Of a stretch of DNA of 64,000 bases, positions 891 through 52,242 are shown in pieces; the first letter of the stretch is position 1, and each line of letters begins with the position of its first letter. The position numbers and the translations under genes were made by a program. The stretch spans positions 62,001 to 126,000 of the forward strand of contig NZ_PIPN01000006.1 of NCBI RefSeq assembly GCF_003986955.1. The letters run 5' to 3'. The stretch comes from Aliidiomarina sedimenti. GTDB lineage: Bacteria > Pseudomonadota > Gammaproteobacteria > Enterobacterales > Alteromonadaceae. The notes beneath the pieces are model-generated. The model worked only from the letters and a program-made list of their open reading frames with translations. It ran no database searches and had not been told where the DNA came from.

Positions 891-1652
891 ATGCAAAAAA
901 CATCGTTTCGTAGCGCTAAAATATCCCCGGCCAAACTGGCGCGCTGGCAGCTAGTGGTGGGGTTAATTGCCGTTGTAGCGATAATTGCTCTGGCATTCAA
1001 TGTTTCCAGCCAGCAATGGCAGGTTCTACTGCAGAGCCTGCTTACTGACCAGGGTTGGGCGGCCAGCCTGACCCTGATCGGGATCTATAGTCTGGCCGTT
1101 ATCGTTTTGCTGCCGCTGTCACCCTTTGCGGTCACTGCAGGTCTACTGTTTGGTTTCTGGCAAGGCGCGCTAATCGCACTTATCGCCTTAAATACCGGCG
1201 CTTTACTCAGTTTCTTAATCAGCCGTCATTTGTTAGGCCATTCGCTACGTCATTTGCTACGCCGCGGTAGCTCCAGCACTTCATTCCGGGCGGGCTCCAT
1301 GCGCCTTCTCACCAGTAACAACATCAGGGTTATCACCTTACTACGCATGAACCCCCTGGTGCCCTTCAACCTGCACAATTACCTGTACGGCGCCGCCACC
1401 ACCGACCTACGGCGTTATGTGTGGGGAACCTTGTTCGGTAGCGCCCCTTTTACCCTGGTCATGGTGTACTTCGGAGTGACAGGGCGTGTTATCTACAGCG
1501 CCGGAGCCTCTTTCGGGCCCTGGCAATACACCATGGTCGGGCTGGGGATCGTCTTATTACTTGTTTTGCTGGCGTTAACCAAATATGCCAGCTCAGCCAG
1601 CCATTTAAGTGACTCTGATGATTCAAAGGACTCCCGTGATTTGGGCGACTAA
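891..1652 (+). CDS. VTT/DedA-like (TVP38/TMEM64 family) membrane protein
   Basis: A 253-residue polytopic membrane protein. Hydrophobic helices lie at about residues 19-40, 55-80, 82-110, 165-190 and 205-228. The glycine-rich stretch GLLFGFWQGAL near residue 83 and the segment LLRMNPLVPFNLHNYLYG near residue 148 match the VTT (SNARE-associated) domain of TVP38/TMEM64 and DedA proteins, whose relatives include lipid scramblases and undecaprenyl-phosphate flippases. It is first in a four-gene plus-strand run; the next gene's Shine-Dalgarno overlaps its stop codon. With a lipid-type glycosyltransferase and a deacetylase following, a role in moving or recycling a lipid-linked sugar is plausible but inferred. 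The tail is polar and rich in Asp and Ser. No strong ribosome-binding site precedes the chosen ATG. Confidence 0.85.
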   Translation: MQKTSFRSAKISPAKLARWQLVVGLIAVVAIIALAFNVSSQQWQVLLQSLLTDQGWAASLTLIGIYSLAVIVLLPLSPFAVTAGLLFGFWQGALIALIALNTGALLSFLISRHLLGHSLRHLLRRGSSSTSFRAGSMRLLTSNNIRVITLLRMNPLVPFNLHNYLYGAATTDLRRYVWGTLFGSAPFTLVMVYFGVTGRVIYSAGASFGPWQYTMVGLGIVLLLVLLALTKYASSASHLSDSDDSKDSRDLGD

Positions 1653-1661
1653 GGAACAGCA

Positions 1662-2996
1662 ATGAAAATATTATTTCTCACCTCGCAGTTAGGCTTTGGT
1701 CATATACGGGCCGCCAATGCGGTGGAGCAAGCGTTGCAAGACCATTACCCAGACGTACGCTGTGAGTATCTTGACTTGTGGTCGCTGGTAGATGAGAAAG
1801 TCGCCGCTGCGGTAAAAGGCAGCTATCTTCGAATGACCCAGGACTACCCGGACTATTATCAAAAACTTTATGACCTGGATAAAAGTGTCTGGCAACAGCT
1901 CAGCGGCGAAACCCCTTTAGACGAAGGCATTAAACAATTCGTCGCCGACCAGCAGTTGCACTGGTTTCCCCGCCAGACCCGCTGGCTGCCTATGAGCCAA
2001 CATAAGCTGGATAGCGCGCTATTAACCAGTTATTTCCGTTTGCTGATTAACCAGGATGAACGAAGCCGCTATTCGATCATACTCCGCAGCTTATTAATGC
2101 TCATACGAACGGTGCTGTTACACCGCATGAAAGAACAGATAGAACGCATCGCACCTGACGTTATCGTGGCCACCCAAATGTACCCGGCTGCGCTGTTTTC
2201 GCGACTGAAACAAAAGCAACAGTTCAGCGATATCCCCTCGCTGGGCATAGTGACCGATTACGGCCTGCAAAAAGTGTGGGTAAAACCCACCACAGATGGC
2301 TATTGCGTGCCCTCATCGGGCGTTGCCGATCAATTGCTGGCGTGGGGCGTACCAGCGGGCAGTATCCATGAAACCGGAATTCCTCTGGACCGGCAATTCA
2401 ATAACCCGCCGCCTCAAAGCGAGGCGCGGGCAGCATTAAAACTGGATCCGCGTAAACCGACGGTGCTGGTGACCGGCGGTCAGTACGGAATTGGTCTGCT
2501 GCCAACCGTCGACTACCTGTGTAAGGCCGCCGATGAATGGCAAATACTGGTCACTGTCGGCAATGCCAGCAGCGACCAAGCCGCTTTGCAACGTTTACAG
2601 CAAACCTGCCCCGCTCAGCTGATACTTTTCGATTGGGTCGACAATATGGCGCAGCTGATTGCCGCCGCCGATGTGGTGGTTGGTAAACCCGGCGGTTTAT
2701 CGGTCAGCGAGGCGCTGGCTTGTGGCCGGCCCTTTTTTGCGACCTGCTCTCTGGGAGGCCAGGAAGCCCATAATGTCGAATTTTTAAGGCAGCAAGGCGT
2801 CGGCGATAAACTCGCTCCCGCGCAACTGGCGGCTCGCCTAAAGCAGTTATTTGCTAAGCCTGAAGTACTCGCTGCAATGCAGGAACGTGCCTATCTCACA
2901 GGCCACCGCAATGCGGCAGAGCAGGTAGCGATGCGTGTTATCGAGCGCCTGCCGGCTTCGTGCAGCCCAATGGCTGAGCCCAAGGTCGCTCAGTAA
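1662..2996 (+). CDS. MGDG synthase-type glycosyltransferase (GT28-like)
   Basis: A 444-residue protein with the two-lobed layout of monogalactosyldiacylglycerol synthase and processive diacylglycerol glucosyltransferases. The N-terminal lobe opens with GFGHIRAANAVEQAL near residue 11, the acceptor-side motif of this family. The C-terminal lobe has VLVTGGQYGIG near residue 268 and VVVGKPGGLSVSEALACG near residue 344, the glycine-rich nucleotide-sugar site shared with MurG. No signal peptide or clear transmembrane helix is seen, so it probably works on the inner face of the cytoplasmic membrane, adding a sugar to a lipid acceptor; donor and acceptor cannot be read from sequence. AAGGA sits six bases before the ATG and overlaps the upstream stop, which suggests co-translation with the VTT protein. 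Confidence 0.85.
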   Translation: MKILFLTSQLGFGHIRAANAVEQALQDHYPDVRCEYLDLWSLVDEKVAAAVKGSYLRMTQDYPDYYQKLYDLDKSVWQQLSGETPLDEGIKQFVADQQLHWFPRQTRWLPMSQHKLDSALLTSYFRLLINQDERSRYSIILRSLLMLIRTVLLHRMKEQIERIAPDVIVATQMYPAALFSRLKQKQQFSDIPSLGIVTDYGLQKVWVKPTTDGYCVPSSGVADQLLAWGVPAGSIHETGIPLDRQFNNPPPQSEARAALKLDPRKPTVLVTGGQYGIGLLPTVDYLCKAADEWQILVTVGNASSDQAALQRLQQTCPAQLILFDWVDNMAQLIAAADVVVGKPGGLSVSEALACGRPFFATCSLGGQEAHNVEFLRQQGVGDKLAPAQLAARLKQLFAKPEVLAAMQERAYLTGHRNAAEQVAMRVIERLPASCSPMAEPKVAQ

Positions 2997-3072
2997 GTAA
3001 CTGCCCACTGACTTATTGTTCAGTAGCTAGTTGTCCAATAATTAGCTGCCCAATAAACCAAGGATTCAGATT

Positions 3073-3663
3073 ATGTTCAGATTATATGCCTGGCGACTTT
3101 TGAACACCTGCTACCTGTGCTACGACAGAGCCTACCGCCGCTGGCATAAATTAGAGCCGGTTGATGATTTTTTGCAGGTGAAAAAGCAGCTTTATCAGGG
3201 GGAGCCTCAGGTATTTCGGGACGGTACCCAGGTCAAGGCAGGTGACGCGATACTGGTGCTGCATTTTAACAATGACTTTATGGCACAGTTACACCAGCGC
3301 ACTAAGCAAACATCGTCTCGTCGCGTGGCCTGGTTTTTTGGTAAAGCGCTGATAAGCTCCATGGCGCGGCTGCATGAGAGCCTGCAGGTGCAGTGTGCCC
3401 AACAAGAAATAAAAGCCATCACCGGCGTCACCTGGTTTAAAACTCACGGTGACAAAGTGGGCTTTGAAAGCCACCCATTGCCGGAAGGCTGGCGGCGGTG
3501 GCTATTGCACTGGCACTTCCGCCTGTTGCTGTTAGCCCTTTTTCCACAGTTGCAGGCGCACCAGAACCGTCAGCTTATACCCCACAGGTTTTGGCTAACC
3601 CCTGCACAGCTGCGTGATACCGTCGAAGGAAAGAGCTCCTATGTGGCCCAACGGCTTTCTTAA
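3073..3663 (+). CDS. Uncharacterised YkoP-like protein
   Basis: A 196-residue protein with no signal peptide. It has a basic, aromatic N-terminus, a central segment with the stretch AILVLHFNN near residue 60, and a hydrophobic patch near residues 142-157 (WLLHWHFRLLLLALFP) that may touch the membrane. It resembles, from memory, the YkoP-like family, which in Gram-positive bacteria is found beside or fused to polysaccharide deacetylases and near YkoN-type glycosyltransferases; the same three partners occur here. Its 3' end overlaps the deacetylase start by 23 bases, so the two are probably translated together. No catalytic motif is recognisable; a role in lipid-linked sugar processing rests on context only. 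Confidence 0.7.
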   Translation: MFRLYAWRLLNTCYLCYDRAYRRWHKLEPVDDFLQVKKQLYQGEPQVFRDGTQVKAGDAILVLHFNNDFMAQLHQRTKQTSSRRVAWFFGKALISSMARLHESLQVQCAQQEIKAITGVTWFKTHGDKVGFESHPLPEGWRRWLLHWHFRLLLLALFPQLQAHQNRQLIPHRFWLTPAQLRDTVEGKSSYVAQRLS

Positions 3664-47792: not shown

Positions 47793-47889
47793 CCTTGCGT
47801 TGTTTACTTCAATACTGTTCATCAACCAAGCAGTACCCATGGGCATGTCCCATATATAACAATGCAACACAACGCAGGTCTTTACCTGC
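47793..47889 (+). promoter_or_regulatory. Possible translational expression platform of the riboswitch
   Basis: A hairpin GCAGGT-CTTT-ACCTGC (47874-47889) ends two bases before the pilin Shine-Dalgarno AGGAG (47891-47895). Its 5' arm can instead pair upstream: CCTTGCGTTGT (47793-47803) with ACAACGCAGG (47869-47878). The two structures exclude each other. No terminator was found, so translational or processing control is the likelier mode; this is inference. Confidence 0.4.
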
Positions 47890-47902: not shown

Positions 47903-48367
47903 ATGAAAAAACTCGTACTAGCGACGGCCATTGCGGCCGCAACCACCATGTCTATGACTGCGCAGGCTCAGGAAGTTGGAACCTTTGATATCGATGTCAA
48001 CGTTGTTGCCAGCTGTGATTTAGTTGCCAACGGGGTCGATTTTGGTGATGTCGACGTATTCGCCGACATTGATCTGGTGACCGCCGCGGCACCAGCAACC
48101 CTCGATATAACCTGCACCAACGGCGCAAGTTACGATATTCTGTTAGGCCACTCAGGAGAGCTAACCCACGCTACTGCTGCACCGGTTACCTATAGCCTGT
48201 TCCAGGATGCTGCATTCACCACAGTCTGGAACGATACAACCGATACCCGCACCGAAACAGGTGACGGTGCTTTACAAAGCTACGACGTGTTTGCTCAACT
48301 GGCCATTGATAACACCACGGAAGTTGGTGCTTACACTGGAACCGTAAACGTAACCGTTAACTTCTGA
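47903..48367 (+). CDS. Spore-coat-U domain pilin (Csu-like major subunit)
   Basis: A 154-residue exported protein. Residues 1-22 form a signal peptide ending AQA. The mature part is one SCPU domain: VVASCDLVANGVDFGDVDVF, LDITCTNGASYDILL, and the ending YTGTVNVTVNF that would serve as the donor strand/beta zipper region. The two Cys form the family disulfide. AGGAG stands seven bases before the ATG. It is the first gene of the operon and the likely main shaft subunit of an archaic chaperone-usher pilus, as in Acinetobacter Csu. Confidence 0.88.
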   Translation: MKKLVLATAIAAATTMSMTAQAQEVGTFDIDVNVVASCDLVANGVDFGDVDVFADIDLVTAAAPATLDITCTNGASYDILLGHSGELTHATAAPVTYSLFQDAAFTTVWNDTTDTRTETGDGALQSYDVFAQLAIDNTTEVGAYTGTVNVTVNF

Positions 48368-49119
48368 TGAAGTCCCCTGCAACTAAGCTACAACAGACCG
48401 GTCGCACCGGTCTGTTGGTTTGCGGCTCGCTGGTATTATTGCTGGTACTTTTGCTTTTGGTCCCGGCCCACGCCAGTAGCTTCACCGTGCAACCCATTCG
48501 CGCCGAGCTTTCTGCCAATCAGCAAGTGTTTGCAATGCGTGTGCGCAACACCAGTTCAAGCGACGTTTCGATTCAGCTTGATGTTAAACAATGGCAACAG
48601 GCCAACGGCCACGAGCTCTACACAGACACCGATGAACTTCTCGCAGTCCCACCTATTTTCACGGTGGCGGCGAACCAGACTCAGACTATTCGTGTCGGCC
48701 TGCGTCGGGCACCGGATCCGGAGCTGGAGCTAAGCTATCGCCTCTATCTGCGTGAACTGCCGCCGGCAGACGACCATTCAAGTGGAGTCAAAATGGCGCT
48801 GAATATCGGTGTACCGGTATTTGTCGAACCGACTACCGGCAGCGCTAACCACCAGCTGGAATGGCAGACCTTGCTCAATAACCAAGGCAGGCAGGTGATA
48901 TCAGTGGTGAATCACGGCAACGGTCATGCGCAAATAACGCGCTTGCAAGCCAGCTCTTTAAGTCAGGATTTTAGCCGGTCACTGAACGATTATGTGTTAC
49001 CGGGCGCCAGTCGCACATGGGTTTTGCCGTCTGACTTTGCAGTAAGCGACAGCAGCGCCCTGCAATTAAGAGCGAGAGTGAATGGCAACGAACAGTCACG
49101 CACCGTTCAGCTGGACTAA
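48367..49119 (+). CDS. Periplasmic pilus chaperone (CsuC-like)
   Basis: A 250-residue PapD-type chaperone with a signal-anchor-like hydrophobic start (about 18-36, ending AHA). The first Ig domain carries FTVQPIRAELSANQQVFAMRVRN and the second MALNIGVPVFVEP. It holds subunits by donor-strand complementation and hands them to the usher. Its start overlaps the pilin stop by one base (TGATG), giving coupled translation, and its end overlaps the usher start by 38 bases. Confidence 0.9.
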   Translation: MKSPATKLQQTGRTGLLVCGSLVLLLVLLLLVPAHASSFTVQPIRAELSANQQVFAMRVRNTSSSDVSIQLDVKQWQQANGHELYTDTDELLAVPPIFTVAANQTQTIRVGLRRAPDPELELSYRLYLRELPPADDHSSGVKMALNIGVPVFVEPTTGSANHQLEWQTLLNNQGRQVISVVNHGNGHAQITRLQASSLSQDFSRSLNDYVLPGASRTWVLPSDFAVSDSSALQLRARVNGNEQSRTVQLD

Positions 49120-51781
49120 ATTCCTTTCAATACTTGTCTTTACTGGTTGTTGCTTGCTGTCATTGGTTACCTCGCCAGCCGTGGCCAGGCCGCTTTTTAG
49201 CCAGCCAGTAGCCAGTGCAATAAGCACGGTACGGTTAGGTGACTGGCAGGACAGAACCCGGTTAGTACTGGAAGGTGTCAGCGGAATGAGTGCAGAGATA
49301 GAGCATGGTAGTTCGGCCACCGAACTGTCACTGCTATTTTATTTCCCTGAAGAACACGATTTTCCAAACTGGTTAGAGCAAGTCATTCCGGGCGACCACC
49401 CAGCGTTACAGCGCGTTCAGATAAGCGATCTTCAGAGTAAAAGCGCCCGCGTCAGATTTCATTTCCATAGCCCTGTCAGCCTCAACATATTTGATTTGCG
49501 TCCAATGGAAGGGTTCCAGTTCCGGCTGGTGCTTGATTTCTATCAGTTGGCGAAGGTCAGTAGTGAGCAATGGCTGGATGTGTTCATAAACAATAAAGGG
49601 GGCTTTGGCACGGTGCTGGCACTTACCACACTTGACCACGATGTATTTCTGGCTGGCAGTGACCTTGAGCGCTGGCGTATCGAGCTGCCCGCTGAGGCCT
49701 ACGTGACGCATTACCAGCAGCCTTATTATTCATTGCGACAGCTTGGTGTGCGCTATCAGATAAACCCGCAGCAATTGCAGCTCAATATTGAAGTACCTGC
49801 TGCTCAGTTTGCCCGCCTGCGCCTGCGCGGTCACGAGCGGGAACGCCCTCAACTGACAGCATCCAGTCTTGGCGCATTTTTCAACTACGACCTGAATGCC
49901 ACTGAGCGCGAGGACGACCTAAGTGCGTCCGGGTTACTCGAACTCGGCCTGTTTAACCGCTGGGGCAGTGGCTCCACCCGGGTACTCGCGCGCAACGAAT
50001 CCGAGTACCATGAACAAGGGGTCATTCGACTCGATACCCAATGGCGCTATGACAACCCCGAGCGCATGACCACCCTTATTGTTGGCGACAGTATCAGCCG
50101 CAGTGCCAGTTGGAACCGGGCCACTCGCTTTGCCGGCGTGCAATGGGGCACCAATTTCAGTACCCAGCCCGAGATGCTGACCATGCCAACTCTCAGTTTT
50201 GTCGGCGAAGCCAGCCAGCCGTCGACGATTGATCTCTTTATCAACGAAGCATTGCGCTTCCGTACTGAGGTACCCGCGGGGCCTTTCAGTATCGACGATC
50301 TGCCAGCTATTACCGGCTACGGCGAAGCACGCATGGTGGTTACCGATATTCTTGGCCGCGAGCAGGTCATCCAGCAAAACTATTTTGCCAACCGCCGTAT
50401 GCTGCGGGCAGGCCTGCATGATTACTCCATCGAGCTGGGTTATATCCGGCAAAATTTCGGCTTACGCAACGATGACTATGGGCCGGGGATGGTTAGTGGG
50501 CTGCATCGCTTTGGCCTGACCAATAATTTCACCTCCGAGGTGCATCTTCAGGCCACCACAGAGCAGCAGCTTGGTGGGGTGGGCGCCAGCTATACCCTGC
50601 CCTGGAACAGCCTGGTTCACGCCGCGGTTGCTACCAGTTATGGTGATGGCCGTCGTGGTCAGTTGCTTAGTATTGGTATGCAGTACCAGCGTCGCCGGTT
50701 CAATTTCGGCATAGACGCCGAAATCGCCAGCGATAACTTCGAACGTGTGGGCAGTACCCGCTTCGCTTTTGTTCCGCGCCAGCAACTGCGCGCTTTCAGT
50801 AGCTACTCGACCGCACGCAGTGGCACCTTAAGTCTGTCCTATACTGAGCAGGATTTTCGCACCCGGCAAGGCATCCAGTTTATAAATGCGGGCTACAGCA
50901 TCCAGTTCGCCCGCTTTGTCAGCCTGCGCTTCTCCGCTCTGCACTATCTGGATGACGAGGACACCCGGTTCAACCTGACCCTGAGTGTTCCACTAGGCTG
51001 GAACCGCACCAGTGCCAGCGTCTCCGCGCAAAACCGTGGCGACGACACGTCAGGCTATGCGCAACTGCAACGGAGTCTGCCCAGCGGCACCGGGGTCGGC
51101 TACCGCCTGCGTCAGGGTCTCAGTGAGCGGGATTTAAGCCTGGCGAGCATTCAGTATCAAAACGACCATGCCCGATACAGTATGGACATTTCAAAACGCC
51201 AGGATATGACCGCAACCCGCGCCGGATTGCGTGGCGCCTTTACCCTCATGCATGGACAATTATCAGCAAGTCGCCAGCTCAACCGAAGTTTTGCGCTGGT
51301 TCAGTTGCCAGACTTTCCGAATGTCCGGGTGTACGCAGATAACCAGCTGGTTGGACGAACCAACGACAAGGGTAATGCGATGATCCCGCGTTTACGACCC
51401 TATCAGCGCAACCGCATCCGGATTGAGCAAGCCGACTTACCCATGAACGCTACGATTGATTCGCTGGAACAGGAAGTCGCGCCATATTATCGCAGTGGGA
51501 TTAAACTTGAGTTTCCGGTGCGGCTGACACGCAGTGCCTTTTTCCGCATTCTGTTGCCAAACGGTGAGCCGGTCCCGGTCGGAGCGACCGCAAGCAGTAC
51601 CAACGACAACAGCTTTATGGTTGGGCACCGCGGCGAAACCTATATGACCGCGCTGCAAGAGCGCAATGAAGTCCATGTGCGCTGGGGCCGGCAACGCTGT
51701 TCATTCGTACTCAGCGTGCCGCTAAGCGATGACGCCCTGCTCGATTTAGGCACGGCAACCTGTCACCCTGAGGCACACTAA
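49082..51781 (+). CDS. Archaic chaperone-usher outer membrane usher with N-terminal AMIN-like domain
   Basis: An 899-residue outer membrane usher. After a signal peptide (about 1-35) comes an extra region (about 48-155) with the twofold pattern of AMIN domains: VRLGDWQDRTRLVLEG...LSLLFYF and VQISDLQSKSARVRFHF...FQFRLVLDF. The usher N-terminal domain follows (WLDVFINNKGGFGTVLAL, YYSLRQLGVRYQI, about 163-240), then the beta-barrel with plug (GDSISRS, PSTIDLFINEALRFRTEVPAG, FSIDDLPAITGYGEARMVV) and the C-terminal domain ending CSFVLSVPL. It exports and polymerises the pilins. AMIN domains usually bind peptidoglycan or septal sites; the fusion is unusual. Confidence 0.88.
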   Translation: MATNSHAPFSWTKFLSILVFTGCCLLSLVTSPAVARPLFSQPVASAISTVRLGDWQDRTRLVLEGVSGMSAEIEHGSSATELSLLFYFPEEHDFPNWLEQVIPGDHPALQRVQISDLQSKSARVRFHFHSPVSLNIFDLRPMEGFQFRLVLDFYQLAKVSSEQWLDVFINNKGGFGTVLALTTLDHDVFLAGSDLERWRIELPAEAYVTHYQQPYYSLRQLGVRYQINPQQLQLNIEVPAAQFARLRLRGHERERPQLTASSLGAFFNYDLNATEREDDLSASGLLELGLFNRWGSGSTRVLARNESEYHEQGVIRLDTQWRYDNPERMTTLIVGDSISRSASWNRATRFAGVQWGTNFSTQPEMLTMPTLSFVGEASQPSTIDLFINEALRFRTEVPAGPFSIDDLPAITGYGEARMVVTDILGREQVIQQNYFANRRMLRAGLHDYSIELGYIRQNFGLRNDDYGPGMVSGLHRFGLTNNFTSEVHLQATTEQQLGGVGASYTLPWNSLVHAAVATSYGDGRRGQLLSIGMQYQRRRFNFGIDAEIASDNFERVGSTRFAFVPRQQLRAFSSYSTARSGTLSLSYTEQDFRTRQGIQFINAGYSIQFARFVSLRFSALHYLDDEDTRFNLTLSVPLGWNRTSASVSAQNRGDDTSGYAQLQRSLPSGTGVGYRLRQGLSERDLSLASIQYQNDHARYSMDISKRQDMTATRAGLRGAFTLMHGQLSASRQLNRSFALVQLPDFPNVRVYADNQLVGRTNDKGNAMIPRLRPYQRNRIRIEQADLPMNATIDSLEQEVAPYYRSGIKLEFPVRLTRSAFFRILLPNGEPVPVGATASSTNDNSFMVGHRGETYMTALQERNEVHVRWGRQRCSFVLSVPLSDDALLDLGTATCHPEAH

Positions 51782-51804
51782 TGGTTCTGATAAAGGTACC
51801 TACT

Positions 51805-52242
51805 ATGACAACGAAACAGTGCACGGCTCTAGCCAGTCTCGCCTGCCTGCTGGTTTCAGCACCTGCTCTGGCAGATTGCACCATTAGTGCTGAAGGGCTT
51901 AGTTTCGGCCAGTATGACGTGTTTGACGAGTCGCCCACTGAAGGCGTAGGTAACCTGACTGTCAGCTGTACGCCATCAACCAGCTATACCGTGCTGCTGA
52001 GTGCAGGAACGGGTAGCTACACTGAACGCTATTTAACGGGCGACCAGTCAACACTTATCTATAACCTCTATATAGATGCAGCCTACAGCCAGGTGTGGGG
52101 GGACGGCAGCGGAGTTTCCACCGTGGTCTCAGGTACAACCGATGGCGCAGCGAACCATGATCTGTACGGACGTATTCCAGCGCGACAGAATGTAACCCCC
52201 GGCCTGTATACCGACACCATCACAGTGACCGTTGAGTTTTAA
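51805..52242 (+). CDS. Spore-coat-U domain minor pilin
   Basis: A 145-residue exported protein with a signal peptide (about 1-23, ending ALA) and one SCPU domain (CTISAEGLSFGQYDVF, LTVSCTPSTSYTVLLSAG, DTITVTVEF). It resembles the first pilin of the operon and may be a minor or tip subunit. ATG 51805 is preferred over 51781 because AAAGG lies about eight bases upstream and it gives a proper signal peptide. Unlike CsuE it has a single domain, so no classical two-domain tip adhesin is encoded in this operon. Confidence 0.85.
   Translation: MTTKQCTALASLACLLVSAPALADCTISAEGLSFGQYDVFDESPTEGVGNLTVSCTPSTSYTVLLSAGTGSYTERYLTGDQSTLIYNLYIDAAYSQVWGDGSGVSTVVSGTTDGAANHDLYGRIPARQNVTPGLYTDTITVTVEF

Follow-up and report, generated by a model that had tools for sequence, protein, structure and literature searches.

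An AMIN domain at the front of an archaic chaperone-usher pilus usher in Aliidiomarina sedimenti, and its possible attachment to the cell wall

Why would the outer-membrane usher of a chaperone-usher pilus carry an AMIN domain, a module known from the amidase AmiC and from PilQ secretins? The question is raised by a 64,000-nucleotide stretch of Aliidiomarina sedimenti DNA (hereafter the window; assembly GCF_003986955.1, contig NZ_PIPN01000006.1, positions 62,001 to 126,000), from a genome of 2.85 Mb in 10 contigs. On the + strand, at 47903-52242, open reading frames (ORFs) and Pfam identify a four-gene operon encoding a subunit of the SCPU (spore coat protein U) type, a PapD-like chaperone, an usher and a second SCPU protein. 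Judged from its sequence, the locus is a minimal archaic (Csu/sigma-type) chaperone-usher pilus operon. The usher (49082..51781, +, 899 aa) contains an extra module of 117 residues (44-160; 49211..49561), located between the signal peptide and the N-terminal chaperone-binding domain. An initial annotation of the window had proposed an AMIN-like domain at about residues 48-155, which agrees well with these boundaries. It had also put the usher at some 100 residues longer than Csu-type ushers, a figure that is roughly right: the excess is 67 aa over CsuD (832 aa) and 123 aa over the nearest usher without the module (776 aa, from a genome designated G329).

By Pfam, the window copy is a borderline case. 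Alone, the module scores 11.9 bits against PF11741, below the cut-off of 20.5, which means that routine annotation can miss the domain, and no family is listed for a trimmed copy (alignment-row scan, E<=1). Three other Aliidiomarina-type copies are also under the cut-off (12.3, 15.6 and 15.9 bits). A Pfam scan of the whole usher gives Usher (PF00577, 2.4e-37) and PapC_C (PF13953, 6.1e-14); no secretin domain is listed at E<=10, and Pfam lists no PapC_N for this usher by sequence. The low scores of the window copy are what speaks for a chance likeness between AMIN and some beta-rich insert. We regard such a coincidence as extremely improbable in view of the comparisons that follow. In an usher of the same group (locus L145), Pfam calls Usher, PapC_C and AMIN together, the last at 35.2 bits. 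An alignment of seven usher AMINs, termed A4, was assembled from five proteins with one copy each and the usher of genome G1300 with two (the window and Aliidiomarina soli rows are near copies); of its seven rows, all but the window row and one other match PF11741 at E<=1. Searched against the PDB, the A4 profile matches Escherichia coli AmiC (4bin, residues 21-133) at E 1.1e-19 over positions 4-115 of 117, followed by PilQ at 0.0038 and then by unrelated proteins from 0.024. Aligned by hhalign with eight AmiC AMINs, A4 gives a probability of 99.2 (E 1.6e-19, 26% identity), and a beta-rich control, the operon's own chaperone, reaches a probability of only 0.7. Furthermore, a hidden Markov model (HMM) built from the eight AmiC AMINs and zero ushers picks out residues 44-155 of the window usher with 28.0 bits. 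This AmiC-only HMM matched all seven AMIN-ushers (best stretches 16.8-31.6 bits), including both AMINs of G1300; of five AMIN-less ushers, three gave nothing and two gave negative scores at other positions (-3.6 and -4.1 bits). The NCBIfam AmiC model matches at 4.2e-6 on the isolated region and at 4.1e-5 on the whole usher, and in a phmmer search of the PDB with the window module AmiC 4bin was the sole match (0.027).

The predicted structure points the same way. An AlphaFold2 model of usher residues 37-253, made from four sequences and covering the module and the following domain, has a mean pLDDT of 75.7; at its pTM of 0.54 the relative placement of the two domains is not interpreted. A single-sequence model of residues 37-899 was unusable (mean pLDDT 34.7), and the two-domain model alone was used. 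The predicted module consists of eight strands and a short helix; the AMIN fold is made up of two four-stranded sheets. In VIA-align the module matches AmiC 4bin best (Z 14.2 over 112 residues at an rmsd of 2.8 A) and Myxococcus PilQ second (3jc8, Z 12.3), and in Foldseek 4bin is the sole match at 0.001 or better (E 1.4e-6). In the model, then, the module has the AMIN fold. Its similarity to AMIN exceeds chance, and on profiles and predicted fold together the domain call is secure; the AMIN-like domain of the initial annotation is thus borne out by the AmiC profile, the AmiC-only HMM and the fold comparison.

The usher is ordered as signal peptide, AMIN, usher N-terminal domain (NTD), barrel and C-terminal domain. 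That is, an apparent signal peptide assigned by eye (about residues 1-36, 49082..49189) precedes the AMIN domain, and a linker of 9 aa (residues 155-163, 49544..49570) runs from the last AMIN motif to the first strand of the chaperone-subunit binding NTD (residues 161-256, 49562..49849). The barrel region (residues 257-820, 49850..51541; PF00577) and PapC_C (residues 821-880, 51542..51721) follow. The NTD is recognised by an HMM of usher NTDs in which the window sequence is itself included, and model residues 123-211 match the FimD NTD (1ze3_D, 84 residues, rmsd 2.6) at Z 8.6, which is barely above the tool's 'common' level, several usher NTDs ranking together.

This arrangement brings in the main rival that does without wall binding, namely that the AMIN domain serves assembly, acting in place of the chaperone-gripping N-tail and aiding recruitment or release of the chaperone-subunit complex. 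The FimD match begins at FimD residue 29, so that AMIN and linker fill the position of the FimD N-tail; excerpts from PMC9452303 attribute about 60% of the chaperone-binding surface to the classical N-tail, and the linker is just 9 aa in five Aliidiomarina-type ushers. However, in the AMIN-less G329 usher, signal peptide and NTD are separated by only about 8 residues (by eye), and chaperone and subunits are kept; that system does without a tail and without AMIN alike. Moreover, the corresponding linkers of 53 aa in an Acinetobacter plasmid usher and 48 aa in G1300 allow the AMIN domain to sit far from the chaperone site. We consider an assembly role unlikely.

Is the module maintained? Between the window and A. 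soli, the nearest named relative among the loci found (ushers 96% identical), the AMIN codons show a dN/dS of 0.063, with 27 synonymous and 8 non-synonymous differences. Elsewhere in the usher the values are 0.053 (barrel), 0.015 (NTD), 0.091 (C-terminal part) and 0.51 (signal peptide); for the window and a further genome, G229, synonymous sites are saturated. At the level of codon substitutions, the AMIN module is under purifying selection. The strand motifs TRLV and RLV[LI]DF are retained in ushers that are only 41-43% identical overall, and the seven usher AMINs share eight invariant positions, including the arginine of the first motif and, in the last motif, R-L and D. In the eight AmiC AMINs, too, these arginines and the final aspartate do not vary. 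These observations bear on the possibility that the domain is a stabilising or folding module, or binds another periplasmic ligand, peptidoglycan binding having been lost. At 26% identity in the hhalign comparison, usher AMINs have diverged from AmiC, and this would fit such a module, as would the absence of AMIN from G329, but a dN/dS about as low as that of the barrel and the conservation of both motif arms argue against it, and we judge it improbable.

How widespread is the combination? Our genome samples overlap and cover 1623 genomes overall; reading was confined to a maximum of 30 loci per search and 20 further stretches, and matches in the order, class and phylum samples were judged by where in the usher the match starts. 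AMIN-ushers occur in 4 of 17 genomes of the genus and 1 of 26 of a second genus, and the same five were found among 395 genomes of the family sample. The carriers, which include A. soli, Pseudidiomarina halophila and A. indica, comprise five species in two related genera. In the order (394 genomes) and class (369) samples, among the matches listed, only the window's own usher match starts before residue 157, and residues 8-162, the AMIN region, are matched by separate ORFs of 381-637 aa; one such ORF that was read (L093) is AmiC-like, as are its family-sample counterparts. From the phylum sample (398 genomes) came a single genome, G1300, which belongs to a different family of the class and encodes a 1134-aa usher ORF with two tandem AMINs. 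An HMM of five Aliidiomarina-type AMINs matches these at residues 95-205 (9.1e-10) and 245-350 (0.006), and one of the two is above the Pfam cut-off. In its congener G1450 the matching pieces lie on two contigs, with a stop, and the pair makes up 2 of the 6 genomes of that genus. A scan with two peptide patterns from the AMIN region returned three loci and missed G1300, because it confirmed relatives of the window protein only. A local AMIN HMM, built from usher AMINs, AmiC AMINs and both G1300 AMINs, found AMIN in 14 of 145 usher ORFs (many of them redundant), corresponding to six genomes.

Some other long ushers turned out to differ. The extended N-termini of L066 and L085 were negative with the local HMM and resemble extra usher NTDs, and the G308 ORF shows no AMIN although its profile match starts at residue 140. 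As separate observations from the same loci, L066 (936 aa) and L085 (1029 aa), both from the class search, have an apparent tandem second NTD before the normal one (HMM E 4.4e-8 and 2.8e-6). Four usher ORFs of 1120-1283 aa (L014, L015, L052 and L053) show extra matches to the last ~60-80 residues of the query, which suggests a repeated PapC_C. In the A. indica genome (L095), a further usher, which lacks AMIN, is encoded some 12 kb away from the AMIN-usher.

A third lineage came from plasmids. In a search of 72,556 plasmid records, pXMC5X702-195k of Acinetobacter pseudolwoffii (NZ_CP084301.1), from chicken faeces, matches window usher residues 24-894 (97%) at 39.3% identity. The search gave 28 records covering at least 80% of the usher, and among the matches listed the 14 other rows all start at residue 148 or later. 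The Acinetobacter protein is annotated plainly as usher; its AMIN domain scores 23.3 bits with the AmiC-only HMM. Its operon (locus L205, 4600-9155) is complete, and its four genes are flanked by two oppositely oriented IS6-family transposase genes; the regions of these two genes share 82.6% identity over 823 bases. The plasmid is typed as mobilizable, and L205 may represent a pilus cassette that is mobile. In a megablast search, 146 plasmid records showed a match to part of the operon stretch, coverage of at least 80% being reached by its own record alone. Viral contigs held no relative of the Acinetobacter usher, and among the 10 matches listed of the 19 phage records (out of 50,697) that match the usher, none extends before residue 218.

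The history of the module was followed on a 31-usher tree for which only the usher part of each protein was used. The eight AMIN-ushers and G329 lie on one side of a branch with support of 93/90 (below the program's star), G1450 being counted as an AMIN-usher with its AMIN part on another contig. An inner group of seven rows that includes Acinetobacter is supported at 100/99, and the AMIN-less G329 is placed beside P. halophila (100/99), as it was in an earlier 24-row tree, since replaced. On this tree the AMIN label requires two changes as against a mean of 7.2 in shuffles, none of 500 shuffles being as low. The simplest reading would be one gain of AMIN and one later loss, plus a tandem duplication or a second gain in the G1300 line; in G329 the module was probably lost. 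As to the source, an HMM of usher AMINs recovers AmiC ORFs down to 7.8e-11 and PilQ-type ORFs at 1.3 at best, and given also the PDB value for PilQ, an origin from PilQ is less likely than one from AmiC. A recent copy of the host's own amiC is not indicated (own-genome AmiC just 0.027 with the usher-AMIN HMM). In an AMIN-only tree the usher AMINs split from those of AmiC (92/93); we place no weight on this short tree, in which the Acinetobacter branch is long and which carries a long-branch flag.

The module is thus conserved, under purifying selection, and recurs in three lineages. Neither of the outcomes that the initial annotation had named as refuting it, an unrelated fold or a disordered and unconserved region, was observed. 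What could it do? Because it follows an apparent signal peptide, and the N-terminal part of an usher faces the periplasm, the AMIN domain would be periplasmic. There it may bind peptidoglycan and so tether the usher to the wall beneath the outer membrane. On the analogy of AmiC and PilQ, its preference may lie with stripped peptidoglycan at the septum and poles, in which case usher insertion, and hence the pili, would be placed there, and the pilus base would be held against pulling. For both AmiC, a cell-division enzyme, and PilQ, peptidoglycan binding by AMIN has been reported. Excerpts from PMC5285504 report that AMIN-containing fragments of Pseudomonas aeruginosa PilQ co-sediment with peptidoglycan, and that deletion of AMIN delocalises the machine, with septal and polar recruitment lost. 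Likewise, AMIN is required for septal and polar recruitment of Myxococcus xanthus PilQ, according to parts of PMC10653833, and passages of PMC12403147 indicate that the AMIN domain of FliO matters in Campylobacter.

By this analogy a wall-related function is plausible, and we lean towards the AMIN domain tethering the usher to the cell wall, with or without an effect on where the pilus stands. Within wall tethering, preferential septal or polar placement may be suggested only tentatively; the idea of the initial annotation, that the module could fix the pilus at a particular place on the cell, likewise keeps the rank of a suggestion. The part of the tethering reading that leaves placement out, namely a general mechanical anchor binding peptidoglycan all round the cell, seems doubtful to us: the excerpts from PMC5285504 describe Neisseria PilQ as having AMIN domains together with peritrichous pili and propose anchoring against force, but the AMINs of AmiC and PilQ recruit to septum and poles (partial text of PMC5285504 and PMC10653833).

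Several points weigh against a wall-bound, positioned usher. AMIN need not mean polar placement, as the peritrichous pili of Neisseria illustrate, and membership of the AMIN family does not by itself prove that peptidoglycan is the ligand. The 9-residue linker of the five Aliidiomarina-type ushers limits the reach to the wall and sets AMIN beside the chaperone site, and given the 53- and 48-aa linkers noted above, reach differs between the lines. G329 retains the operon and is AMIN-less, so the domain is not needed in every such system. In the Acinetobacter usher, finally, Pfam lists no AMIN at E<=1, and its AMIN is only 19% identical to that of the window. It is conceivable, and we put it forward with reserve, that these proteins form a distinct usher subfamily whose pili would be targeted to and held at septal or polar peptidoglycan via the usher AMIN, independently of but like type IV secretins, and which would have spread between genera on mobile plasmid cassettes.

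The remainder of the operon fits an archaic system. The first SCPU gene (47903..48367, +; PF05229 4.3e-20) has its start set by eye at ATG 47903, the longest ORF opening with TTG at 47795. By eye, its product has an extension between signal peptide and first cysteine, as expected for a polymerising subunit with a donor strand. The chaperone gene (48367..49119, +; PF00345 6.8e-18) overlaps the start of the usher gene by 38 nt. The second SCPU protein (51781..52242, +; 153 aa, single SCPU domain, PF05229 1.5e-34) has its first cysteine almost directly after the signal peptide and, by eye, no donor-strand extension, and for this reason is probably the tip subunit. Putative tip subunits with a single SCPU domain and, by eye, no such extension are encoded also at L205 8643-9155 and L165 10177-10650; they are unlike the 339-aa CsuE. 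The four-gene operon is common to all three AMIN-usher lineages, and the order SCPU, chaperone, usher, SCPU is the same in L033, L034, L035, the AMIN-less L094, L096, L205 and G1300 (neighbours identified by Pfam in the window and L205, by eye in the remaining loci). The surroundings of the operon are common to the window and A. soli and differ in the other loci.

Our reading of the literature covered open-licence PMC papers, domain-architecture databases lying outside its scope. None was found that joins an AMIN domain with an usher or chaperone-usher system. Papers retrieved for AMIN with fimbria are about type IV pili by title or about M. xanthus PilQ, except for PMC7565204, which, as far as its excerpts go, has just an amidase plus a separate pilin; among those for outer membrane usher with peptidoglycan-binding, no title indicates such a fusion. 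In this literature we thus found no description of archaic ushers that form a subfamily bearing wall-binding-type domains, consistent with the view of the initial annotation that no example was known. To our knowledge there is no settled account of how usher pili come to their position on the cell, or of which structure besides the outer membrane bears the pulling force. With a wall-binding-type module on the usher itself, both questions become directly testable through deletion of one domain, for which G329 serves as a natural AMIN-less control.

Compared with known systems, the window operon is most readily set beside the archaic Csu/sigma pathway, with which it shares an usher barrel, PapC_C, a FimD-type NTD and the grouping of these with SCPU subunits and a PapD-like chaperone in a single operon. 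The alignment of CsuD with the window usher runs over residues 218-895 at 30% identity, but CsuD (gene 1135-3633) is shorter and the match stops short of the AMIN region; the Csu operon encodes the 339-aa tip adhesin CsuE, whereas the last gene of the window operon encodes a single SCPU domain of 153 aa. The likeness to AmiC lies in the predicted fold (Z 14.2) and in a profile match across the whole AMIN domain, but the window protein has no Pfam-listed amidase domain and its AMIN is fused to an usher. FliO with AMIN or LysM, as described in excerpts from PMC12403147, is another case in which an appendage machine spanning the envelope has gained AMIN in particular lineages, but FliO belongs to the flagellar export apparatus of the inner membrane. 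The PilQ secretin of type IVa pili is an outer-membrane pilus gate with one or tandem N-terminal AMINs in the periplasm and a similar fold (Z 12.3); the sequence match of the usher AMIN to PilQ is, however, much weaker than that to AmiC (0.0038 versus 1.1e-19), and gate (secretin multimer versus usher barrel) and pilus are unrelated. The window usher would also show that secretin and usher, two unrelated gates, have each recruited an AMIN domain.

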